DNA from: Ignavibacteriales bacterium
GTDB lineage: Bacteria > Bacteroidota > Ignavibacteria > Ignavibacteriales > Melioribacteraceae
Assembly (NCBI GenBank): GCA_026390775.1
Contig: JAPLFF010000003.1
Coordinates: forward strand, 248,001 to 312,000
Direction: 5' to 3'
DNA: 64,000 nt
The notes below the pieces were generated by a model. The model had not been told where the DNA came from. It saw only the letters and a list, made by a program, of their open reading frames with translations, and made no database searches. The translations under genes and the position numbers were made by a program. This document shows, one piece after another, positions 6,810 to 13,687 of the stretch. The stretch's first letter is position 1, and each line of letters opens with the position of its first letter.

Positions 6810-7832
6810 ATGAGTTACAAAAAAGTAATCATTACAAAATACGGTCCTCCTGATGTGCTGAAGGTTATTGAAGAAGAACATTTACCTGAACCGGAAAAAG
6901 GCGAAGTACGAATAAAAGTTTTAGTAACAAGCGCATCATTTACAGACACACTTCTACGTAAAGGAATGTATCCTGAAGTAAGAAAAAAACTGCCGCTATC
7001 TCCCGGGTATGATATGGTTGGAATTGTAGATAAGTGCGGCGAAGATGCATCTATGTTTAATGCCAGTCAAAAAGTTGCGGCATTAACTGTTTACAGCGCT
7101 TACTCCGAATATATCTGTCTTCACCAGGATACTTTAATCTCTGTTCCCAAAGGATTGGATGATGCAGAGGTTGTCAGCTTAATACTTTCTTATATGACGG
7201 CATATCAAATGCTTCACCGTACGGCAAAAATTCAGAAGGGTCAAAGTATTTTAGTGCATGGCGCAGGAGGAGCGGTCGGAACTGCATTGCTTCAACTTGG
7301 GAAATTACTCAATCTAAAAATGTACGGAACAGCAAGAAAATCCAAACACAATTTGATTAAAAATTTAGGCGCGATCCCGATTGATTATCAATCAGAAGAT
7401 TTTGTAGAACGGATTAAAACTTATACCGGTTCCGGCGTTGATGCTGTATTCGACTGCATCGGTGGAGATTATTTTAAGAGATCGTTTGCTTCTCTTAAAC
7501 CCGGCGGTATCTTAGTTGCGTATGGTTTCCAGCAAGCCGTGATGAGTAATGGAAATATGATGGATATAGTTCTTGGTTTCATAAAAATAAAACTATGGAA
7601 CATTCTGCCGAATAAAAAAGCGGCAACATTTTATGCAATTAGTTCACTGCGAAAAAAACAACCCGACTGGTTTAAAGAAGATTTAACGGTGCTGTTTGGA
7701 TTATTACAACAAGGTAAAATTAAACCTGTGATCGCAAAGAAGATGCCTCTTACCAACGCGGTAGAAGCTCACAAGCTTCTTGATCAAGCGAGTGTTGAAG
7801 GTAAAATCATATTAATCGTTAATAAGGAATGA
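6810..7832 (+). CDS. Medium-chain dehydrogenase/reductase, quinone oxidoreductase-like
   Basis: A 340-residue member of the MDR superfamily. The N-terminal GroES-like domain contains the SPGYDMVGIV segment, and the Rossmann domain carries the dinucleotide motif HGAGGAVGTALLQLG near residues 150-164. The cysteines and histidines that bind zinc in alcohol dehydrogenases are absent, which fits the zinc-free NADPH-dependent quinone or enone reductase branch. The start at 6810 has an AAGGAGAAG ribosome site eight bases upstream. Substrate unassigned. Confidence 0.87.
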   Translation: MSYKKVIITKYGPPDVLKVIEEEHLPEPEKGEVRIKVLVTSASFTDTLLRKGMYPEVRKKLPLSPGYDMVGIVDKCGEDASMFNASQKVAALTVYSAYSEYICLHQDTLISVPKGLDDAEVVSLILSYMTAYQMLHRTAKIQKGQSILVHGAGGAVGTALLQLGKLLNLKMYGTARKSKHNLIKNLGAIPIDYQSEDFVERIKTYTGSGVDAVFDCIGGDYFKRSFASLKPGGILVAYGFQQAVMSNGNMMDIVLGFIKIKLWNILPNKKAATFYAISSLRKKQPDWFKEDLTVLFGLLQQGKIKPVIAKKMPLTNAVEAHKLLDQASVEGKIILIVNKE

Positions 7833-7850
7833 GCATTCTTTTGAAAAAGA

Positions 7851-7888
7851 TTAACAATTCCATAACACTACCATAATATTGAGTTAAT
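7851..7888 (+). promoter_or_regulatory. Pho-box-like array upstream of a small membrane protein
   Basis: Four pentamers begin exactly 11 bases apart: TTAAC (7851), ATAAC (7862), ATAAT (7873) and TTAAT (7884). Eleven-base direct repeats of a TTAAC-like unit are the established form of PhoP/PhoB operators (TTAACA-type in Bacillus). The array is a close copy of the one at 8181, which precedes the porin-pst operon. It lies 43 bases upstream of the ATG at 7931. Confidence 0.7.
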
Positions 7889-7930
7889 ACTAATTATTGA
7901 TCTTTAGCCGAACAAAAAAATGAGGTAATT

Positions 7931-8113
7931 ATGTTTGGTTTATGGTTTTCAATAGTTGGATTAATATTTGGGACACTCTGCTCATTTGCAGCAAAAGAAA
8001 AAAATAGAACTCAGAAGGATTGGTTCATATTAGGGTTCATCTTCTCGATTTTGGGTTTTACACTTCTCCATTTACTGCCAAATAAAAAAACAACATCAAC
8101 TGCATCAGCGTAA
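7931..8113 (+). CDS. Small membrane protein of unknown function, predicted Pho-regulon member
   Basis: A 60-residue protein with two predicted membrane helices (about residues 3-20 and 32-49) joined by a charged loop AAKEKNRTQKDW, ending in a polar tail NKKTTSTASA. I do not recognise a characterised family; the pattern resembles small bacterial phage-holin or YfhO-unrelated two-helix proteins only in a general way. It begins with ATG after a GAGGT ribosome site. A tandem TTAAC array with 11-base spacing lies just upstream, and the porin-pstSCAB-phoU operon follows 120 bases downstream with a second such array. It may therefore be induced by phosphate starvation. That is inferred from position and sequence only. 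Confidence 0.65.
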   Translation: MFGLWFSIVGLIFGTLCSFAAKEKNRTQKDWFILGFIFSILGFTLLHLLPNKKTTSTASA

Positions 8114-8180
8114 TTAATGAATTATAGTTTTACTGATGCAGGTTTGATTCATCTTCTATTTCCTCCCTTCTCAAAAATTC

Positions 8181-8236
8181 TTAACAATTCCTTAACACTG
8201 CCATAACATTGAGTTAACATTCGAAATATAAGTTTG
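8181..8236 (+). promoter_or_regulatory. Pho-box array and promoter of the porin-pst operon
   Basis: TTAAC (8181), TTAAC (8192), ATAAC (8203) and TTAAC (8214) repeat at exactly 11-base intervals, the spacing of known PhoB/PhoP operators. TAAGTTTG at 8229-8236 fits the TAnnTTTG promoter element of Bacteroidota and overlaps a TATAAG -10-like box. The genes downstream are all phosphate-uptake genes, which supports the reading. Confidence 0.8.
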
Positions 8237-8269
8237 GGTATCACAAAAAAATATAAGAGGAATCTTAGT

Positions 8270-9328
8270 ATGAAAAAAATATACACCATTTCGATAATAT
8301 TGGTTTTGTTTTCCACATTTAATTTTGCTCAGAACGTGACCGATAGAGTAAAACTTGGCGGGTTAATGTTTGGTGATTATTTCTATAATATTAATAACGT
8401 AGATGGAAACCAACAAAATATAAACGGTTTTCAGTTTAGAAGAATTTATTTTACCGCAGATATTACAGTAGCAGAAAGTTTTGATGCACGTTTCCGTTTA
8501 GAATCGGATCAGAGTGCAAACTCGAATACCGGTAGTGGAAAACTTGGAGTTATGGTTAAAGATGCATATTTAAAATGGAAAGGAATTTTCAGCGGTTCGG
8601 ATTTGATCTTCGGTATCTCTCCAACTCCGGCTTTTGATATTTCGGAAGCAGCCTGGGGTTACCGTTCTTTGGAAAAGACAATCATGGATTTAAATGGAAT
8701 TGTTTCTTCAAGAGATTTTGGTGTTGATCTAAAAGGAAAGATTACTGATGGCGGTTCGGTAAACTATTGGATTAAGATTGCAAACAATTCTAGTAATGGA
8801 CCTGAAACGGATAAATACAAACGGTATTATGCTTTAGTGCAAGTAAAACCGGTTGATGGATTCCAAGCTACAGTATATTATGATTATGCAGCAAAAGCAG
8901 ATGTTACTGATTCTTTCGACAAAACTACAAAATCAAATAACGCTTACGTAGCAGCGTTATTCTTAAACTATCAACAGAAAAGTGATTTTGCATTTGGGTT
9001 TGAAGGCTTCAAAAGAAGCATTCAGAATGGTTACAAAACAACTGGTGCACTGATGGATCAAAGTACTATGGGACTTTCTTTCTGGGCATGGGTAAGCTTA
9101 GCAGATAATTTTAGATTAGTTGCAAGATATGACAGCTACGACCCGAATACCGATCTTGACAATGATAAAACTACTTTATTATTAGCCGGTCTTGATTACA
9201 AAGTTGCAAAAAACATAAGCATCATTCCTAATGTGGAATTGTTTACTCCTCAAACAGCAACAAATACAAACGGATCGACAGCATCAAGTAATTTACAGGG
9301 TAGAGTAACATTTGCATTCACATTTTAA
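8270..9328 (+). CDS. Outer-membrane porin, probably phosphate-selective
   Basis: The likely start is ATG 8270, 10 bases after AAGAGG, though the frame is open from a TTG at 8234. The 352-residue product has a signal peptide ending near FNFAQ (residues 1-21), and the rest shows alternating beta strands with a terminal aromatic (VTFAFTF), as in beta-barrel porins. The opening of the mature chain (a GGLMFGDYFYN segment) is reminiscent of OprO/P-type porins. It leads the pst operon behind a Pho-box array and would admit phosphate across the outer membrane. Selectivity is inferred from context. Confidence 0.85.
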   Translation: MKKIYTISIILVLFSTFNFAQNVTDRVKLGGLMFGDYFYNINNVDGNQQNINGFQFRRIYFTADITVAESFDARFRLESDQSANSNTGSGKLGVMVKDAYLKWKGIFSGSDLIFGISPTPAFDISEAAWGYRSLEKTIMDLNGIVSSRDFGVDLKGKITDGGSVNYWIKIANNSSNGPETDKYKRYYALVQVKPVDGFQATVYYDYAAKADVTDSFDKTTKSNNAYVAALFLNYQQKSDFAFGFEGFKRSIQNGYKTTGALMDQSTMGLSFWAWVSLADNFRLVARYDSYDPNTDLDNDKTTLLLAGLDYKVAKNISIIPNVELFTPQTATNTNGSTASSNLQGRVTFAFTF

Positions 9329-9350: not shown

Positions 9351-10397
9351 ATGAAATTAAGATCAATTATTTCAATAATATTTTTAGCGCTTTCCATTTC
9401 TTCAGTTACTCATGCACAACTACAATTAAACGGTGCAGGTGCTACATTCCCGGCAGTAATTTATTCAAAATGGTTTGACGAGTATAAAAATATGACTGGT
9501 GTACAATTCAATTATCAAGCAATTGGAAGCGGCGGCGGAATCAGACAAGTAACTGAGGGAACAGTTGATTTTGGCGCCACAGACGGACCAATGTCCGATC
9601 AACAATTAGCAGAAGCTAAATCCAAACAAGGAAGCGATGTACTTCACATTCCAACAGTAATGGGTGCAGTTGTAGTTAGTTATAATTTACCGGGAGTAAG
9701 TAGTAAATTAAATCTTGATGGAGAAACACTTGCGAATATTTTCTTGGGAAATATTACAAAATGGAATGACGGCGCAATTGCAAAAATGAATCCTAAAATG
9801 AATCTTCCCAATAAAGCTATTGTTGTTACACATAGATCTGATGGCAGCGGAACAACTTTTATCTTTACAGATTACTTAGCTAAAGTTAGTAAAAATTGGG
9901 AAGGCAAAGTTGGAAAGGGAACATCAGTAAACTGGCCTGTTGGTTTAGGCGGAAAAGGAAATGACGGCGTTGCCGGTTTAGTTAAACAAACCGAAGGATC
10001 AATCGGTTATGTTGAATTAGCTTACGCTGTTAAAAACAATATTGCTTATGCTAACATGAAAAACAATTCAGGTAATTTTGTTGAAGCAACTTTTTCATCT
10101 GTAAGTGCTGCTGCAGAAGGTGCATCTAAGAATATGCCTTCTGATCTAAGAGTTTCAATTACAAATGCCGATGGAAAAAATTCATATCCTATTTCCGGAT
10201 TTACCTGGTTATTGGTTTATAAGAATATGAAAGATGAAGCGAAAGCAAATGCATTAGTTAAATTCTTGAAGTGGGCGATGGGTAAAGGTCAATCATTTGC
10301 AACTGATTTGTATTATGCACCGCTTCCAAAAGCTGTAGTTAAAATGTGTGAAAAGAACATTGCGACAATCACTGCAAACGGTAAAAAAATAAAATAA
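9351..10397 (+). CDS. pstS: Phosphate ABC transporter substrate-binding protein PstS
   Basis: The start is ATG 9351 with GGAGAC just upstream; the open frame reaches back into the porin gene but the signal peptide begins here. The 348-residue protein has a signal peptide (about 1-23, ending THAQ). Phosphate-binding loops are visible: GAGATFP near the mature N-terminus, GSGGGIRQ, DFGATDGP and HRSDGSGTTFIF. It would capture phosphate in the periplasm and deliver it to PstC-PstA. It lies 22 bases after the porin gene and 14 before pstC. Confidence 0.96.
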   Translation: MKLRSIISIIFLALSISSVTHAQLQLNGAGATFPAVIYSKWFDEYKNMTGVQFNYQAIGSGGGIRQVTEGTVDFGATDGPMSDQQLAEAKSKQGSDVLHIPTVMGAVVVSYNLPGVSSKLNLDGETLANIFLGNITKWNDGAIAKMNPKMNLPNKAIVVTHRSDGSGTTFIFTDYLAKVSKNWEGKVGKGTSVNWPVGLGGKGNDGVAGLVKQTEGSIGYVELAYAVKNNIAYANMKNNSGNFVEATFSSVSAAAEGASKNMPSDLRVSITNADGKNSYPISGFTWLLVYKNMKDEAKANALVKFLKWAMGKGQSFATDLYYAPLPKAVVKMCEKNIATITANGKKIK

Positions 10398-10411: not shown

Positions 10412-11380
10412 TTGAGTTATTCTGTATCGAAGAAAGAAAAAAATAATATTCTAAAAAGATTTTTTCCTTCAAATAATTTCGGTGATTTCATTTTTGAAAG
10501 ACTGACTTGGTTTTTTGCCTTGTCGGTCTTTCTGCTTGTTATCCTTATGGGATACGAAATGTATGAAGGATCAAAAATCTCAATCCAAAAATTTGGTTTG
10601 GATTTTTTAGTTAATTCAACTTGGGATCCAGTTCGAGAAATCTACGGTGCACTTCCAATAATTTACGGAACGATTGTTTCTTCTTTGTTGGCGTTAATAA
10701 TAGCTCTCCCGTTTAGTGTTGGAGTGGCAGTTTATTTGGCAGAAGTTGCACCGCACTGGCTGGAAAAACCGCTTTCATTTTTAGTAGAATTGCTTGCCGG
10801 TATTCCCAGCGTAATTTATGGTCTTTGGGGAATTTTTGTTTTAGTGCCATGGATAAGAACAAATGTTGAACCTTATTTATCAGATAAATTAGGATTCCTT
10901 CCATTCTTTCGCGGTGCGCCTTATGGTTTTGGTATGTTGGCGGCAGTTCTAATTCTAACAATAATGGTTTTGCCAATTATTACTTCAATTACTCGTGATG
11001 TTTTAAAGTCTGTACCAAAATCTCAACGTGAAGCTGCATTGGCATTGGGTGCAACAAAATGGCAATCAACTCTGATTGTTCTTAAAGATGCAAAATCCGG
11101 AATACTTGGTGCAACTATGCTTGGATTTGGACGGGCAATAGGCGAAACAATGGCTGTAACAATGGTAATAGGAAATCGAGCATTAATTTCTCCTTCGCTG
11201 TTCGATCCTTCCTACACAATGGCGAGTGTTATAGCAAATGAATTTACCGAAGCTACATCGGAAATGTATTTAAGCGCATTGATTCAATTAGCTCTGGTAT
11301 TGTTTGTAATTACAATAATCATAAATGCTTTGGCAAGATTGTTAGTCTGGAGTATGGATAGAAAATGGAAAACAACATGA
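10412..11380 (+). CDS. pstC: Phosphate ABC transporter permease PstC
   Basis: A 322-residue inner-membrane permease. The start is probably TTG at 10412, since the only nearby ATG (10401) is out of frame and stops at once, and the next in-frame ATG lies inside the first helix. Hydrophobic segments begin near residue 30. The cytoplasmic EAA loop reads REAALALGATKWQS, the contact site for PstB. The last four bases overlap the probable start of pstA (ATGA). Confidence 0.95.
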   Translation: MSYSVSKKEKNNILKRFFPSNNFGDFIFERLTWFFALSVFLLVILMGYEMYEGSKISIQKFGLDFLVNSTWDPVREIYGALPIIYGTIVSSLLALIIALPFSVGVAVYLAEVAPHWLEKPLSFLVELLAGIPSVIYGLWGIFVLVPWIRTNVEPYLSDKLGFLPFFRGAPYGFGMLAAVLILTIMVLPIITSITRDVLKSVPKSQREAALALGATKWQSTLIVLKDAKSGILGATMLGFGRAIGETMAVTMVIGNRALISPSLFDPSYTMASVIANEFTEATSEMYLSALIQLALVLFVITIIINALARLLVWSMDRKWKTT

Positions 11381-12231
11381 TGAAACCAAATTTTTTCTTT
11401 TATAGAAAAAAGATTACCAGCTTCATTATGATGTCTTTGACATTTATAGCTGCTCTTGCTGCTATAATTCCTCTGGTATTAATTTTTTATTACACCATCT
11501 CAAAAGGAATTACTTATTTAAATTTAGATTTCTTTGTTGCTATGCCAAAACCGGTTGGAGAATCCGGTGGAGGAATGGCAAATGCAATCGTTGGTACTTT
11601 GATTCTAATTGGAATTGGCGGTGCTATTGGAATTCCGGTTGGAATAATGACCGGTACTTATTTATCGGAATTTGGAAATAATAAGTTCGGTTTTGTTGTA
11701 AGATTTCTAACAGATGTATTAAGCGGAATCCCATCTATTGTTGTTGGTGTTGTTGTTTATACTATGGTTGTAATGCCAATGAAACATTTTTCTGCTTTAG
11801 CCGGAGGAATTGCCTTAGGGATTCTTATGATTCCAACGATCACGCGAACGACTGAGGAAATGATAAAGCTTGTACCACATTCTTTGCGGGAAGCTGGATT
11901 AGCACTCGGAATACCAAAATGGAGAACAACTCTTTCTATTGTACTTAAATCGGCGTGGAAAGGAATTGCGACAGGTGTACTTCTCGGATTATCAAGAGCT
12001 GCGGGTGAGACTGCACCGTTATTATTTACTGCTCTCGGCAATAGATTTTGGTCAACAAATATCGGTCAGCCAATTGCATCTTTAACAGTTTACATTTATG
12101 ATTATGCGAAATCACCTTTCGAAGATTGGAATCAACAGGCTTGGACTGCAGCTTTAGTCTTAATTTTATTAATCTCACTTTTAAGCTTGCTGTTTAGAAT
12201 TATAACACGATCAAAATATAAAACGAATTAG
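11377..12231 (+). CDS. pstA: Phosphate ABC transporter permease PstA
   Basis: A 284-residue partner of PstC with about six membrane helices and an EAA loop REAGLALGIPKWRT. Possible starts are ATG 11365, 11377 or 11380. I chose 11377, which overlaps the pstC stop as ATGA and has a GGA-containing site eight bases upstream. A GAP-like RAAGETAPLLFTALGNRFW segment near residue 220 is typical of PstA. It forms the translocation channel with PstC. Confidence 0.94.
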   Translation: MMKPNFFFYRKKITSFIMMSLTFIAALAAIIPLVLIFYYTISKGITYLNLDFFVAMPKPVGESGGGMANAIVGTLILIGIGGAIGIPVGIMTGTYLSEFGNNKFGFVVRFLTDVLSGIPSIVVGVVVYTMVVMPMKHFSALAGGIALGILMIPTITRTTEEMIKLVPHSLREAGLALGIPKWRTTLSIVLKSAWKGIATGVLLGLSRAAGETAPLLFTALGNRFWSTNIGQPIASLTVYIYDYAKSPFEDWNQQAWTAALVLILLISLLSLLFRIITRSKYKTN

Positions 12232-12246: not shown

Positions 12247-12996
12247 ATGGAAATTAAAATATCAGTTAAAAATCTTGATGCATTTTACGGTAAGAATAAA
12301 GTACTTCACAATATCTCGATTGATATTCCAAAGAACAAAGTACTTGCTATTATTGGTCCGTCCGGTTGTGGTAAATCAACATTTATAAGATGTTTAAACC
12401 GAATGCATGAAGTTGTCGGAGGTACTATAAAAGGGGAAATTTTACTTGATGGAGAAGATATAATAAAAACTGATCCGGTGCTTTTAAGAAAAAGAGTAGG
12501 TATGGTTTTTCAAAAACCGAATCCATTCCCTTCAATGTCAATATTCGATAATGTTGCTGCAGGGTTAAGATTAAACGGAGTGAGAAATAAAAAAAAGATT
12601 ACTCCAATAGTTGAAAAATGTTTAAAGCAATCGGCACTTTGGGATGAAGTAAAAGATCAGCTTGATAAATCCGGTGCGAATATATCAGGCGGACAGCAGC
12701 AGAGATTATGCATTGCAAGAACTTTGGCAGTTGATCCGGAAGTAATTTTAATGGATGAACCTGCCAGCGCACTCGACCCGATCTCCACTACTAAAATCGA
12801 AGATCTAATCTTTCAACTTAAAAAAGATTATACGATAGTTATTGTAACACATAATATGCAGCAAGCCGCACGTGTAAGCGACTATACTGCTTTTTTCTAT
12901 ATGGGAAAATTAATTGAGCTTGATGAGACTAATAAAATTTTCACATCACCGTCAAATAAACAAACCGAAGATTATATACGCGGTCGTTTCGGATAA
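12247..12996 (+). CDS. pstB: Phosphate ABC transporter ATPase PstB
   Basis: A 249-residue ATPase with Walker A GPSGCGKS (37-44), signature SGGQQQR (147-153), Walker B VILMDEP (166-172) and the switch histidine in IVTHNMQQ. The [19 protein letters not shown] stretch is diagnostic of PstB. It energises the PstCA channel. It starts 15 bases after pstA and ends 16 bases before phoU. Confidence 0.97.
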
Positions 12997-13012: not shown

Positions 13013-13687
13013 ATGTCAGAACACTTTAACCAAGAAATAGAAAATCTAAAATCAAATCTTATTAAAATGGCATCTTTAGTAGATGAGCAGGTTGATAAAG
13101 TTATCACTTCCTTAAATACTGGTGATGTTGAATTGTGCAAAGGAATTAAATCTCAAGATATCGAAATTGATAGATACGATAATTTAATCCAGACTCAATG
13201 TGAAAATATTTTAGCTTTATTCCAGCCTGTTGCTTCTGATTTAAGATTAGTAATGTCTGCTATAATGATTAACAACAACCTAGAACGATGTGGTGATATT
13301 GCTGTAAATATTTCTCAGAGAGTAAAGAAAACCGGTAATGAGCGTTCTCTTATTTCAGAATCCCAAATTATTGATATGGCACGTACTGCTCAAGAGATGT
13401 TAAAAAATTCAATTGATTCATTTATTAAAAATGACACAGAACTTGCAAGTAATGTTATTGCTAGCGATGAAAAGGTTGATAAATTGAATAAACAAATATT
13501 TAATTTCCTTGTTTCAAAAATGCAATCTAACAATGAATTAATTGAAGCTTGTACTCATCTTATAGTTATGTCTCGCAATATTGAACGATTGGCAGATCAT
13601 GCAACTAACATTGCAGAGAACTTAGTGTTTTATGTTGATGCTCAGATTATTGCTCATAGAAAAAAACTTGAACGCAGTGGAAATTAA
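13013..13687 (+). CDS. phoU: Phosphate signalling protein PhoU
   Basis: A 224-residue all-helical protein from ATG 13013, which has AAAAGGA upstream; the open frame begins earlier, inside pstB. Two PhoU repeats are visible, each with an E/DxxxD metal-binding pattern (NLERCGDIAVNISQ near residue 83 and NIERLADHATNIAE near 188). PhoU links the Pst transporter to the Pho two-component system and represses signalling when phosphate is plentiful. It closes the operon. No phoR or phoB gene is in the window. Confidence 0.95.
   Translation: MSEHFNQEIENLKSNLIKMASLVDEQVDKVITSLNTGDVELCKGIKSQDIEIDRYDNLIQTQCENILALFQPVASDLRLVMSAIMINNNLERCGDIAVNISQRVKKTGNERSLISESQIIDMARTAQEMLKNSIDSFIKNDTELASNVIASDEKVDKLNKQIFNFLVSKMQSNNELIEACTHLIVMSRNIERLADHATNIAENLVFYVDAQIIAHRKKLERSGN

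Follow-up and report, generated by a model that had tools for sequence, protein, structure and literature searches.

A conserved array of 11-bp direct repeats precedes the gene of a predicted small membrane hairpin protein in Ignavibacteriales and suggests its membership in the Pho regulon

The closest described counterpart of the locus reported here is the Pho regulon governed by PhoB in Escherichia coli and Bacteroides fragilis and by PhoP in Bacillus, in which Pho boxes of 11-bp direct repeats take the place of the -35/-33 promoter element; PhoB of B. fragilis binds its own pst promoter (PMC3547664). Small proteins of the DUF1127 type bind the kinase PhoR (PMC12501420), which in its textbook form contains a PAS domain (PMC12501420). 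Two further kinds of system are relevant for comparison, namely the lipid-remodelling loci, which include OlsF loci and those of PlcP and a glycosyltransferase (PMC4796936), the latter pair of enzymes being phosphate-induced in Flavobacterium (PMC8115612), and the TsaT toxin family (NF047370) of short hydrophobic proteins. No Pho-box consensus for Ignavibacteria or Bacteroidota was found in the literature searched, and as far as these searches reach the ignavibacterial operator is undescribed.

The window, the whole 64-kb stretch of DNA that was analysed, from a Melioribacter-like ignavibacterium, resembles the known Pho systems in having 11-bp direct repeats before a porin-pst operon, in the replacement of the -35/-33 element and in a PhoB-PhoR pair encoded in the same genome; it differs in the repeat core, WTAAY (TTAACA-like), and in a -7 element of the Bacteroidota type. 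The features are collected in Table 1. The preliminary description had read four repeats at an 11-base step ahead of a small gene, and they stand at exactly the positions it gave (TTAAC at 7851, ATAAC at 7862, ATAAT at 7873 and TTAAT at 7884, spacing exactly 11 bp); its distance of 43 bases holds when counted to the first base of the ATG at 7931, which lies 42 nt past the last repeat. The same pattern had been noticed ahead of the neighbouring operon, and an array with repeats at 8181, 8192, 8203 and 8214 does precede the Porin_O_P porin and pstSCAB. These two are the only perfect fourfold WTAAY-N6 arrays in the window, and none arose in 200 dinucleotide shuffles. Neither an RNA element (Rfam, 7500-8500) nor a terminator-like site (7800 to 8300) was found around the small gene.

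Table 1. Coordinates of the small gene, the two operator arrays and the adjoining porin-pst operon (bit scores against cut-offs).
Feature	Position in window	Strand	Remarks
Pho-box array of small gene, 4 direct repeats WTAAY, 11-bp period	7851..7888	+	kept before 18/18 orthologues
Probable -7 element GATCTTTA (consensus TAnnTTTG)	7899..7906	+	fixed 14 nt from array to TTTG
60-aa two-helix inner-membrane protein (predicted), basic loop	7931..8113	+	unmatched in family libraries searched
Second array, 4 x WTAAC, porin-pst promoter	8181..8218	+	stronger than 7851 array
-7 element TAAGTTTG of porin-pst promoter	8229..8236	+	
Phosphate-selective porin O/P family protein	8270..9328	+	PF07396, 28.1 bits vs cut-off 20.9
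pstS	9351..10397	+	TIGR00975, 407 bits vs cut-off 205
pstC	10412..11380	+	TIGR02138, 316 vs 196
pstA	11365..12231	+	TIGR00974, 288 vs 193
pstB	12247..12996	+	TIGR00972, 389 vs 343
phoU-like gene, operon's last	13013..13687	+	position and reading of sequence; no NCBIfam match at E<=1e-60

The small gene is a 60-codon ORF whose product had been taken for an undescribed two-helix protein. Both parts of that reading stand: AlphaFold2 predicts a helical hairpin (helices 2-23 and 28-48; moderate confidence, pLDDT 76, pTM 0.45), and searches of Pfam, NCBIfam and PDB returned sub-threshold matches only. Foldseek gave no match to the hairpin model, so structure offers no help with function. The ORF is under purifying selection (mean pS 0.74, pN 0.22; pN<pS in 36 of 36 pairs), with invariant residues G10, F13, G14, S18, A21, W31, F32 and G35 and the loop motif SxxAKxKNRxxxxWFxLGFxF. 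The interhelix loop is net positive in all 18 orthologues; by the positive-inside rule it would be cytoplasmic, with both protein ends outside. The protein resembles the DUF1127 PhoR binders in its small size, its net basic element and a possible modulation of the phosphate system, but it is a predicted membrane hairpin, and DUF1127 is absent among its Pfam matches. The family is newly described, within a well-known regulon whose regulatory logic is already known.

The search for homologues covered 57 related genomes and, with a profile, 294 genomes of the class, an orthologue being defined by alignment over the whole hairpin with the pattern (F)GLxxxIxGLxxGxxCS...W(F/Y)xxG. Including the window copy this gave 18 orthologues from six genera, a damaged copy in G002 and a partial match in G017 being left out. 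The array, on whose presence before homologues the preliminary description had made its proposal depend, lies upstream of all 18 among differing neighbours, its best score falling 74-90 nt ahead of the start codon in every case. Seven remoter hits, whose comparable hairpin forms part of other proteins, all lack it and serve as a built-in negative control. Four orthologues (G030, G032, G075 and G243) have the array and no recognised Pho neighbour. The G002 copy, beside phoBR (L038, about 2172-2357), is apparently frameshifted and its array decayed, as if both were being lost together, or as the result of an assembly error; the G268 copy after pstS (L121, start 6992) has only 46 aa, is without the last part of the second helix and may be truncated.

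The consensus drawn from 32 arrays, in the genus and among its near relatives, reads TTAACAATTYC TTAACA..... WTAAYATTGAG TTAAYA, followed by TAnnTTTG. The latter corresponds to the -7 element that Bacteroidota promoters carry, for which the source is Bayley et al. (2000), as cited in PMC3547664. The gap between array and TTTG or TTTA is fixed at 14 nt in the 32 arrays, TTT is kept in 31-32 of them, and the A (A50) of the TA ahead of TTTG is invariant in all 32, though it lies outside the search pattern. The operator thus keeps a fixed promoter distance and substitutes for the -33 element, which is how a promoter activated by PhoB should be laid out. A search of the 12 genomes of the genus for the array together with TTTG, allowing one mismatch at most, gave 22 sites, which lie ahead of 12 phosphate-porin genes, six small genes and one each of a PlcP-like phosphoesterase gene, a NeuB-like gene (divergent from PlcP), a TonB-dependent-receptor-like gene and a glycan operon of the window genome; all 22 precede phosphate-related or surface genes as assigned by sequence resemblance, with representatives assigned by Pfam or NCBIfam. 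A third array in the source genome (G000:C7:662697; L024, about 9698-9753) has the same 14-nt spacing to TAATTTTG and heads an operon for a 341-aa Glyphos_transf-like protein, a cytidylyltransferase, a split transketolase and more sugar genes; this array and its gene are also present in G003, G008 and G011, and a similar array is found in G005.

Six OmpR-type (Trans_reg_C) regulators are encoded in the source genome. One, at about 117 kb on G000:C3 with a kinase gene adjacent, is 65% identical to the PhoB encoded divergently from the small gene in G007, and none of the remaining five exceeds 36%; among NCBIfam models this candidate scores best with Bacteroides PhoB, its 247.6 bits falling short of the equivalog cut-off of 270. 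The PhoR-like kinase has HisKA and HATPase domains, and neither PAS nor HAMP was found in it by Pfam, unlike the textbook kinase with its PAS domain. Judged by eye, this kinase (L111:1709-2758) has two transmembrane helices with almost no extracytoplasmic loop.

The small gene occurs in three settings: beside porin or pst genes (G000, G003, G005, G007, G300 and G268), beside phoB-phoR (G002 and G007), and ahead of a gene for a 111-aa protein (G004, G006, G008, G009, G010, G026, G230, G095 and G300). Frequent company in the third setting are OlsF, a PlcP-like phosphoesterase (a label given by context and a Metallophos domain only), an MGDG-synthase-like glycosyltransferase, and PstS or PafA phosphatase. 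Within the genus, the 111-aa, PlcP-like and MGDG-type genes have an identical distribution, all being present in five genomes (G004, G006, G008, G009 and G010) and in no others, which suggests that the 111-aa protein, for which no family or fold match was found, is probably a lipid-remodelling accessory; OlsF is confined there to G004, G009 and G010. The small gene is present in these five genomes and also in genomes without the island. The 111-aa family (MSxINYEIALYNSPFFEELVSELYRISRYKRNIY...) directly follows the small gene in L026, L027, L029, L030, L031, L033, L117, L118 and L120. A 69-79-aa family (MExxxGDKxxYxFP...LKVSFKNF) lies beside it in L026 (about 0.4 kb upstream), L117, L118 and L035; it has its own upstream array in G010, and the one member scanned has no Pfam match. 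In G023 and G041 (L123 and L124) a gene resembling a transporter of the small multidrug-resistance (SMR) type directly precedes olsF.

Several explanations of the array compete with control by PhoB. In pattern searches of the source genome the relaxed form (TTAAC x4, at most three mismatches) occurs three times against eight for its reversed control and is not enriched, so that the 7851 site needed comparative support; a single degenerate array would not by itself be significant, and the case rests on comparative evidence. That lack of enrichment speaks for a chance match, or for an array shared only through recent ancestry preserving the whole region, yet either origin is hardly credible and both are rejected by shuffle and flank tests: the neighbours differ, 17 of the 18 upstream regions, each of 130 nt, outscore their own mononucleotide shuffles at p<=0.001 (G300, p=0.044), and pairwise identity among 12 orthologues is 87% in the repeat pentamers and 56% in the spacers but 32% in the 60 nt upstream. 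Control by a different regulator of the OmpR family, with phosphate genes among its targets by coincidence, is improbable, too, though less so. Direct repeats spaced by about 11 bp would fit several regulators of this family, which has six members in the genome, but throughout the genus the array marks porin/pst promoters, it recurs at other genes of the Pho type, and one of the six regulators is a clear PhoB orthologue. From this comparison we conclude that the small gene very probably belongs to the Pho regulon, which supports the phosphate-starvation-induced small membrane protein proposed in the preliminary description, PhoB binding and phosphate induction being predicted.

For the protein itself, a generic two-helix membrane or toxin-like peptide devoid of a specific Pho role is an unlikely identity. 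Such hairpins do occur within unrelated larger proteins, and the product has a weak profile similarity to the toxin TsaT, like which it is short and hydrophobic; this similarity (19.4 bits, E 0.001) falls far below the family cut-off of 80, no antitoxin-like partner is common to all loci, and the invariant residues, the purifying selection and the link of every orthologue to a Pho array all speak against it. A much weightier possibility, although one that we consider doubtful, is that the same regulation serves another job, the protein acting in lipid remodelling during phosphate starvation as an accessory of OlsF, of a PlcP-type lipase or of a glycolipid synthase, or else serving as a packing factor once phospholipid declines. 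Several orthologues do lie in lipid-remodelling loci with Pho arrays, in keeping with the documented PlcP/glycosyltransferase remodelling and its induction in Flavobacterium: the small gene, the 111-aa gene and olsF are joined by short or overlapping junctions and followed by a PlcP-like gene in G230 and G095, with a close counterpart in G300; the OlsF of G010 exceeds its curated cut-off (690 bits vs 620); and MGDG-synthase-like and metallophosphoesterase genes are neighbours in G006 and G008. Against a lipid role, none of the OlsF, PlcP-like, MGDG-type and 111-aa genes was found in G000 (the window genome itself), G003, G005 and G007, all of which keep an intact small gene, and many OlsF genomes are without it. 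No comparable small hairpin protein was met in the literature consulted on such loci. OlsF as a general partner of the small protein was rejected, several carriers of the small gene being without OlsF.

The reading that we prefer is membership in the Pho regulon with an action on the phosphate system itself. It is proposed that the 7851 array is the operator for the OmpR-family regulator PhoB, its four 11-bp repeats offering room for two PhoB dimers; when phosphate runs short, PhoB~P would bring RNA polymerase to the array/-7 promoter, and the 60-aa protein would be expressed, crossing the inner membrane as a hairpin of two helices with its basic loop in the cytoplasm and serving as an adaptor that touches a Pho component shared by all carriers. 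The retention of the small gene in genomes without lipid enzymes speaks for a partner that every carrier has, which would be PhoR or Pst, and so probably for a core Pho component; an adaptor for such a component, most likely the kinase PhoR or the Pst permease, is our tentative assignment, only slightly favoured over the lipid role. A partner in Pst or PhoR is made less likely by the location of half of the orthologues, which adjoin not pst but lipid-remodelling genes or the 111-aa companion, and the frequent lead position of the gene in lipid operons favours a membrane role; in G001 the array stands ahead of porin-pst and the small gene is absent, indicating that it is dispensable for Pst. 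More speculatively still, the protein might represent a new class of PhoB-induced small membrane regulator with feedback on the Pst permease or on the PAS-less kinase PhoR.

An uncharacterised family thereby gains a clear prediction of when its protein is made, within a very well-studied nutrient response. The operator consensus lets the Pho regulon be read off genome sequence, and it already points to further unknown members, including the 111-aa companion, a 72-aa protein and the glycan operon. The small hairpin protein, kept as it is without lipid-remodelling genes, is a tractable candidate regulator of phosphate sensing; a feedback regulator of this kind, if true, would mean that phosphate status is reported by a different route in Ignavibacteria.
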